Source: Campylobacter sp. LR291e (GTDB taxonomy: Bacteria; Campylobacterota; Campylobacteria; Campylobacterales; Campylobacteraceae). Taken from it: 64,000 nucleotides of DNA. Below are positions 25,648-26,747 of this stretch, one piece after another (position 1 is the stretch's first letter; the number at the start of each line of letters is the position of its first letter). The notes beneath the pieces are model-generated. The model made no database searches. It was given only the letters and a program-made list of their open reading frames with translations, and was not told the DNA's origin. The position numbers were made by a program, and so were the translations under genes. Where the stretch lies: contig NZ_VJNV01000022.1 of the NCBI RefSeq assembly GCF_008633915.1, positions 38,384-102,383 on the forward strand, written 5' to 3'.

Positions 25648-26099
25648 TATTTTTAAAGGATTTTACTAAGCTTAATAGGGCTGAACTTTATCTTGTGTTA
25701 ATGTTTAGGAATGATAAAAAAATCGCCTCTTTTATGCATACAAAAGAAATTTCTTTAAAAACTCACTTAGAATTTATTGAAAATTTAAAAAATGATAAAA
25801 GCAAAAAATATTTTTTAGTCTTTGATGATGATGAAATTTTAGGCGTTATTGATTTTGTAAATATAAATAAGCAAAGTTGTGAATTTGGTATGTATCAAAA
25901 TCCTTATTTAAAGGGCTTTGGGACTATTTTAATGAAAGAGATTAAAAAATATGCCTTTGAAAATTTAGGATTAAAAAATTTAAATGCTAGGGTGTTTAAG
26001 GACAATGAAAGGGCTTTAACACTTTATTTAAAGCATGGTTTTAAGATTATAAAAAAGGATGAAAATATGATTTATCTTAGCTTAAATGGGGGGGGTTAG
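25644..26099 (+). CDS. pseH: Pseudaminic acid N-acetyltransferase with phase-variable 3' end
   Basis: GNAT acetyltransferase that N-acetylates the C4 amine of the UDP-sugar precursor. The 151-residue protein has the acetyl-CoA region EFGMYQNPYLKGFGTILMKE near residue 73 and ARVFKDNERALTLYLKHGF near 115, typical of PseH. The last codons run through a G8 tract (26088-26095) and end GGG-stop. With seven G the frame would run on for ten more codons to the TGA at 26125-26127, overlapping the next gene's GTG; with nine G it would end at 26102-26104. Confidence 0.9.
   Translation: MIFLKDFTKLNRAELYLVLMFRNDKKIASFMHTKEISLKTHLEFIENLKNDKSKKYFLVFDDDEILGVIDFVNINKQSCEFGMYQNPYLKGFGTILMKEIKKYAFENLGLKNLNARVFKDNERALTLYLKHGFKIIKKDENMIYLSLNGGG
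26088..26095 (+). repeat. G8 tract at the end of pseH (candidate contingency locus)
   Basis: Eight consecutive G in very AT-rich DNA. Poly-G tracts of about this length mutate often in Campylobacter and cause phase variation. Each length gives a different pseH stop codon. Confidence 0.85.
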
Positions 26100-26107
26100 C
26101 TTAATTT

Positions 26108-26125
26108 ACGAGAGGCTTGCCTCGT
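26108..26125 (+). promoter_or_regulatory. Small hairpin over the ribosome site and GTG start of the formyltransferase gene
   Basis: ACGAG (26108-26112) pairs with CTCGT (26121-26125), or GAGG (26112-26115) with CCTC (26120-26123) around a CTTG loop. The AGAGG ribosome site and part of the GTG start are inside, so a ribosome translating through from pseH would be needed to open it. Confidence 0.45.
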
Positions 26126-26747
26126 GAAAATAGCTATATTAACTAGTAAAAATCAATGGTTTATACCCTTTGCTAAAAAATTAAATAAAAAGATTAAAGA
26201 TAGTAAGCTTTTTTATTCGCATGATGATATAAAAGATTACGACATAGTTTTTATACTAAGTTATCATAAGATTATAGATAAAAAAACCTTATTGAAAAAT
26301 AAAGAAAATGTAGTAATTCACGCTTCAAATTTACCTGCCTTTAAGGGCTTTGCCCCTATGTTTTATCAAATACTTAAAAATTATAAAAATATAGTTTTTT
26401 CTTGTTTAAAGGCTGATATAAATGTTGATAGTGGGGATATTTATTTTAAAAAGACCCTGCGTTTAAAGGGCGATGAGTTATATGATGAGTTAAGGACAAA
26501 GCAAGGGGAATTTGTAATAAAACTTTGTCTTCATTTTTTAAAACTTTATCCAAATTTTAAGCTTAAAAAGCAAAATGGGGTTGAGAGTTTTTGCAAGAAA
26601 AGAAATCCAAAAGATAGCGAACTTAACATTAAAAAAAGTATAAATTCGCAATTTAATCTACTTAGAATTTGTTCTAATGAAGAATTCCCAGCCTTTTTTT
26701 ACAAAAATGGAAAGAAGTATATTTTAAAAATTTATCGCCAAGATTGA
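26124..26747 (+). CDS. Formyltransferase-family sugar-modifying enzyme
   Basis: A 207-residue protein of the formyltransferase fold found in nonulosonate and O-antigen clusters. Residues 85-145 carry VVIHASNLPAFKGFAPM with the catalytic histidine and VDSGDIYF with the catalytic aspartate; the C-terminal part KRNPKDSEL is a known family end piece. It likely transfers a formyl group from formyl-tetrahydrofolate to a sugar amine, but the true acceptor is unproven. GTG start with AGAGG eight bases ahead, both within a hairpin. About 24 bases follow the present pseH stop. Confidence 0.8.
   Translation: MKIAILTSKNQWFIPFAKKLNKKIKDSKLFYSHDDIKDYDIVFILSYHKIIDKKTLLKNKENVVIHASNLPAFKGFAPMFYQILKNYKNIVFSCLKADINVDSGDIYFKKTLRLKGDELYDELRTKQGEFVIKLCLHFLKLYPNFKLKKQNGVESFCKKRNPKDSELNIKKSINSQFNLLRICSNEEFPAFFYKNGKKYILKIYRQD

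Follow-up and report, generated by a model that had tools for sequence, protein, structure and literature searches.

A G tract at the 3' end of pseH as a candidate phase-variable switch of translational coupling to a formyltransferase-family gene

The 64,000-nucleotide (nt) stretch of Campylobacter sp. LR291e analysed here (assembly GCF_008633915.1, contig NZ_VJNV01000022.1, positions 38,384 to 102,383; hereafter the window) carries within a pseudaminic-acid operon the gene pseH (25644..26099; 154.7 bits against TIGR03585 PseH, cut-off 93.1), followed by a gene of the formyltransferase family, here called FT (26124..26747; 207 amino acids (aa), GTG start; 28.5 bits against PF00551, cut-off 26.1), both on the + strand, as are all the elements of their junction. 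At its 3' end, pseH contains a run of eight G (26088..26095), and the number of G in this tract decides where the reading frame ends. With 8 G, as assembled, PseH has 151 aa and stops at TAG 26097-26099, 24 nt before FT; with 9 G it stops at TAA 26102-26104, 19 nt before FT; and with 7 G it acquires an alternative tail (26096..26127) that ends at TGA 26125-26127, overlapping the FT start codon at 26124 by 4 nt, in the form GTGA. The tract, the three stops and the overlap had been placed at these positions by an earlier, sequence-only reading, which proved right when the sequence was read again. A Shine-Dalgarno (SD)-like GAGAGG (26110..26115; anti-SD duplex energy -5.8 kcal/mol) lies 8 nt 5' of the GTG, and folding of 26096-26165 predicts a hairpin (26097..26136) that covers both the ribosome-binding site and the start codon.

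Judging from the sequence, this arrangement is probably a phase-variable switch of termination-reinitiation coupling from pseH to FT that spares PseH itself. In one of the three tract frames the pseH stop falls on the FT start codon, where the terminating ribosome would likely reinitiate, whereas in the other two, PseH ribosomes would stop short of it. The predicted hairpin would hold down translation of FT unless it is traversed by a PseH ribosome, and in the coupled frame such ribosomes would open the FT start region. Slippage in the tract would then vary the dose of FT at random, while PseH, which is needed for pseudaminic acid, would remain active in every phase. The window, with its 8 G, was assembled in an uncoupled frame, in which FT is probably lowered but neither absent nor silenced: not absent, because the stop lies only 24 nt from a usable start site, and not silenced, because a ribosome at TAG 26097, given its usual footprint, would cover only part of the hairpin. 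That PseH is spared, as the sequence-only reading had supposed, agrees with the alignment to PseH of PDB 4xpk, which spans residues 2-147 of the 151 in the 8-G frame; by this alignment the acetyltransferase domain is complete before the tract, so that PseH should work in every phase. Termination-reinitiation at gene overlaps is known to be efficient, 13 of 14 overlapping gene pairs from Haloferax and E. coli having been found strictly coupled (PMC6728339).

Does the meeting of frames hold beyond the window? At 25 of 25 loci from different genomes, pseH has a terminal tract of 8-21 G, and at each of them one tract frame or more stays open from pseH as far as the FT start or beyond it; exactly one frame does so at 23 loci, and in L010 and L015 a second frame runs further still. 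These counts leave out L007, which is near-identical to L006, and L017, which has lost the FT 5' end; besides L007, the duplicates and near-duplicates dropped were L032 (as L006), L033 (as L015) and L034 (as L075). In the reaching frame, 12 loci overlap by 4 nt (ATGA or GTGA) and eight by 1 nt; in L068 and L072 the stop abuts the FT ATG after spacers of 172 and 174 nt, and three loci have it deeper within FT, L014 by 29 nt, L071 by 16 nt and L075 by 10 nt. (The FT starts of L034, L071 and L075 were shifted 12 nt upstream to an ATG after sequence inspection; neither L071 nor L075 contributes to the 21 overlaps counted below.) A PseH-FT protein fusion, also considered, is not the conserved outcome, the reaching frame ending within -29..0 of the FT start. 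When each spacer was compared with its dinucleotide shuffles (24 loci, L066 being dropped as a near-duplicate of L065 here and in the thinning, folding, accessibility and TATAAT analyses), a reaching frame was present in all 24 versus 14.3 expected (P 4.9e-8), and the stop fell at -4..0 of the FT start in 21 versus 6.7 expected (P 6.8e-12). Both features persisted once the spacers were thinned to below 70% identity (19/19 reaching, P 4.9e-6; 16/19 overlapping, P 3.3e-8) or below 60% (11/11, P 1.5e-3; 10/11, P 2.1e-6). The idea that the tract switches translational coupling from pseH to FT is thus favoured by the cross-species comparison, the meeting frame being kept at 8-21 G in every locus, and the tract lengths of relatives, which the sequence-only reading had proposed to compare, do differ. 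Its suggestion that 7 G was the ancestral state fares worse: seven of the 25 loci, near one in three, are coupled as assembled, and relatives found in either phase are what an ever-switching tract would give.

The same spacers bear on a transcriptional alternative, in which the tract would lie within an FT promoter and alter its spacing, much as promoter poly-G is known at porA of N. meningitidis. The best TATAAT matches in the 24 spacers cover 3 to 6 of the 6 positions, one being exact (L075), as counted without a control set, but such -10-like matches are scattered in position, and no sigma-70-like site was found across the tract in a scan of 25600-26900 that was confined to this promoter type. 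A promoter, moreover, needs no reading frame that meets the FT start, and we give this alternative very little likelihood.

The tract tracks the pseH-FT junction rather than FT. Among 49 genomes of the genus, including the window's own, 18 contain an FT orthologue (at E 1.8e-71 or better), and in 16 of these pseH lies directly 5' of FT and ends in a G tract; L003 has pseG there instead of pseH, and no tract, and L017 has lost the tract together with the FT 5' end. Order-wide (Campylobacterales, 398 genomes, E <= 1e-40), FT was found in 31 genomes, 24 of them outside the genus and 23 of these with a locus (G067, which returned none, was dropped). Ten of the 23 have pseH and the tract, nine of them in a family (f13) that includes Helicobacter and the tenth in the window's own family but a different genus, and 13 have neither 5' of FT; within f13, the sequence of L075 is identical to that of L034, a named Helicobacter. 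Overall, 26 of 41 FT loci have pseH with a 3'-terminal tract, 14 have neither and one is broken.

Public PseH protein clusters also end in different tract frames, which may reflect variation within species. PseH clusters of C. upsaliensis share a near-identical stretch before the tract and then part into different tails, GGGGVTLYFNSLRRAS (P0187, the coupled tail of L012), GGGGVTLVFKICAEAA (P0188), GGGGNPLL (P0186) and GGGGGNPLL (P0191); ahead of that stretch they are less alike, at 72 to 91% identity to the query, and therefore represent different alleles. The C. helveticus cluster P0193 ends in GGGGVAFR, an uncoupled frame of L018; L018 itself was assembled in the coupled frame, and over the 76 residues that precede the divergence of the tails it shows a single difference from P0193. 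Cluster P0121 of C. lari and cluster P0122 are two tract frames of nearly one protein. As the clusters were built at 90% identity, their member counts give no phase frequencies. A published case belongs here as well: H. canadensis HCAN_0914, annotated 'flaG', has 155 aa, a (G)11 tract with reads of 9-13 G, tails of 2/0/16 and five bases before the stop (PMC2823697), and L065, from genome G355, agrees in its 155 aa, its G11 and its five bases, while its FT-meeting frame gives a tail of 16 residues. Six further tracts of G355 match tract lengths in the table of that paper; on this agreement, H. canadensis 'flaG' appears to be the pseH described here.

The authors of that work took the HCAN_0914 tract to alter the C-terminus of the protein that carries it, and its main text contains none of the terms 'coupling', 'overlap' or 'downstream gene'. 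Their reading lends weight to the possibility that what varies is PseH itself, its tail altering activity, stability or partners with the meeting of FT incidental, and the tails indeed vary, by 0 to about 60 residues. Yet these tails vary widely in length and sequence between species, they follow a domain that is already complete, and their variation would leave unexplained both why a frame stops at the FT start of 21 of the 24 loci and why FT orthologues that lack pseH upstream also lack a tract. We regard C-terminal phase variation of PseH as unlikely to be the purpose of the tract.

How would the uncoupled frames keep FT low? The predicted fold of 26096-26165 has -16 kcal/mol (z -2.71; 3/200 shuffles as stable) and pairs 26105-26112 with 26121-26128, leaving the GTG wholly paired, as well as 26097-26101 with 26132-26136. 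The predicted hairpin is larger than the sequence-only reading had described. Across tract loci a synonymous-codon test gave a signal, and FT start regions behind tracts fold more stably than those of control loci, i.e. FT orthologues without pseH or tract (13 of 14, L085 being dropped as a duplicate of L084). The proposed role of the hairpin as a gatekeeper fits this stability but not the accessibility of the start codon, which is the same as in the controls.

Other 3'-terminal tracts offer a comparison. Among 116 tracts examined (26 of at least 8 G in the window's genome and, of at least 9 G, 30/62 in G012, 30/32 in G355 and 30/85 in G010), 23 are 3'-terminal and 17 of these have a next gene; the four 3'-terminal tracts among the 30 examined in G010 have none. 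At the 15 junctions other than pseH-FT, one frame ends within -4..+12 of the next start in 10 versus 5.6 expected (P 0.003).

Several points weigh against the coupling switch. At these 15 junctions the excess of overlaps at -4..0 was modest (6 versus 2.9 expected, P 0.019). The greater stability of start regions behind tracts is uncorrected for base composition; within the window itself, the hairpin is no better than with random synonymous codons (p 0.64); start-codon accessibility is equal in tract and control loci (0.57 versus 0.56, p 0.96) and SD accessibility over -24..+42 differs weakly (p 0.095); and the SD may be strong enough for FT to start on its own. The 454 reads behind the H. canadensis range are, according to their authors, weak on homopolymers (PMC2823697). 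Related spacers are not independent, and thinning removes their shared ancestry only in part. Finally, among shuffled versions of the window's 28-nt spacer, 87% have a reaching frame and 42% overlap at -4..0; the window alone is therefore compatible with chance, and it was this that required the comparative test. To that extent the tract might be neutral or decaying, a homopolymer without effect beside an ordinary short overlap of a compact operon, such as the 4 nt shared by pseG and pseH, and in the window the coincidence would be unremarkable. But a single junction retains its 8-21 G across the genus, another genus of its family and a family that contains Helicobacter, and neutrality is hard to square with this and with the conserved reaching frame, which makes such an explanation quite improbable.

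What FT itself does bears on the consequence of switching it. It scores 47.1 bits against TIGR00460 fmt, far under the cut-off of 201.5. Formyltransferases use the catalytic set Asn-x-His...Asp, which FT does not have in full: aligned with 3tqq, it reads VVIHAS where 3tqq has VNVHAS, so that the His and the later Asp are retained and Val stands in place of the Asn, as it does in 1zgh. FT is consequently not established as an enzyme of formyl transfer, and its reaction may be a different one. Gene order prompts the guess that FT and PseH share one 4-amino sugar as their substrate; if they did, the switch could, speculatively, set the acyl mix on flagellin.

Among the closest known systems is cj0045 of C. 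jejuni, an otherwise intact gene with a 3'-end tract in which G11 adds 15 aa and overlaps the start of cj0044 (PMC8355987, PMC4965091), and a changed expression of cj0044, via coupling or interference, has been suggested (PMC8355987; PMC4965091 Table 1 footnote). The likeness to pseH-FT lies in the 3'-end tract with one length reaching the next start; unlike pseH-FT, it is a single locus in a single species, with unrelated genes and an effect of open direction, and the published accounts, in the portions drawn on, contain no cross-species frame test. The proposed phase-variation mode, different from simple ON/OFF, is therefore less new than was thought. C-terminal phase variation and phase-variable gene fusion are known in H. 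canadensis (PMC2823697) and N. gonorrhoeae (PMC5320596). In the fusions HCAN_0660-0661 (PMC2823697) and NGK_1211-1212 a 3'-terminal tract likewise decides the meeting with the neighbour, except that there the proteins merge, whereas the reaching frame of pseH ends at or just inside FT. Constitutive termination-reinitiation at ATGA/TGATG (PMC6728339) shares the stop-start overlap of the coupled pseH frame; there it is fixed by the sequence, while at pseH-FT it comes and goes with tract length. The phase-variable flagellar glycosylation genes of Campylobacter (maf, cj1295 and Cj1313 groups, the last being that of pseH) belong to the same pathway, and PMC8355987, in the part used here, treats them by their own gene function, with no downstream target. 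Neither 'coupl' nor 'C-terminal' was found in the portion used of a 2025 review (PMC11868660), and neither pseH-FT coupling nor a frame conserved across species is reported in the full-text literature searched (titles and abstract starts, few subscription journals covered). The kind of switch is hence already known, if itself still unproven; the pseH-FT target and the cross-species design did not turn up in the literature so searched.

Phase-variation catalogues mostly judge a tract by its effect on its host gene. It is possible, if somewhat short of probable, that 3'-end tracts represent a general poly-G coupling-switch mode in Campylobacterales, in which the host gene stays intact and translation of the next gene would be varied by a stop on its start and a hairpin opened by the coupled ribosome alone; pseH-FT would be its best conserved case, setting the acyl mix of flagellar pseudaminic acid, and capsule-type sugar genes of the window's genome have a like layout. 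If so, tracts recorded as neutral or as C-terminal variation would in fact switch a different target, and genes required for motility, pseH among them, could harbour a switch and still be kept. The pseH-FT pair permits a clean test of whether a single repeat base sets termination-reinitiation.

In the window, the pseudaminic-acid operon comprises pseF (24144..24839, + strand, TIGR03584), pseG (24796..25647, + strand, TIGR03590), pseH, FT, a pseD/maf-type gene (26841..28817, + strand; NF050051 FlagModPseD, 736.6 bits, cut-off 670) and an ATP-grasp gene starting at 28820. The pseD/maf-type gene contains a G9 tract (28292-28300), in frame as assembled and of the ordinary ON/OFF kind, in the same operon as the pseH tract.

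A second G tract (6-13 G), absent from the window, occurs elsewhere at the FT 3' end, about +622 to +654 from the FT start and before a PseH-like acetyltransferase gene. At all 14 tract-bearing loci read (L004-L007, L014, L034, L067, L068, L071, L072, L076, L079, L081 and L083; L006 and L007 near-identical, L017 excluded, L083 not shown ending in a stop), exactly one of the three frames fuses FT with the acetyltransferase, and 10 are fused as assembled; by its reading frames, this tract is a phase-variable fusion adjoining the putative coupling switch. In L003 (genome G007), a reading frame of 374 aa that joins FT and acetyltransferase comes after pseG, with neither pseH nor tract 5' of it, as if the fusion replaced pseH.

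Further sugar genes of the window's genome end in tracts, on contig C3 (L088, near 4776, 6371 and 11414) and in L106 (near 1568), and in each, one frame abuts, overlaps or ends 9 nt short of the next start. On C3, where gene names were assigned by eye without a profile search, one tract frame of an aminotransferase-like gene ends with KKAA at a TAATG that meets the next gene, and the assembled frame of an epimerase-like gene abuts the next ATG.
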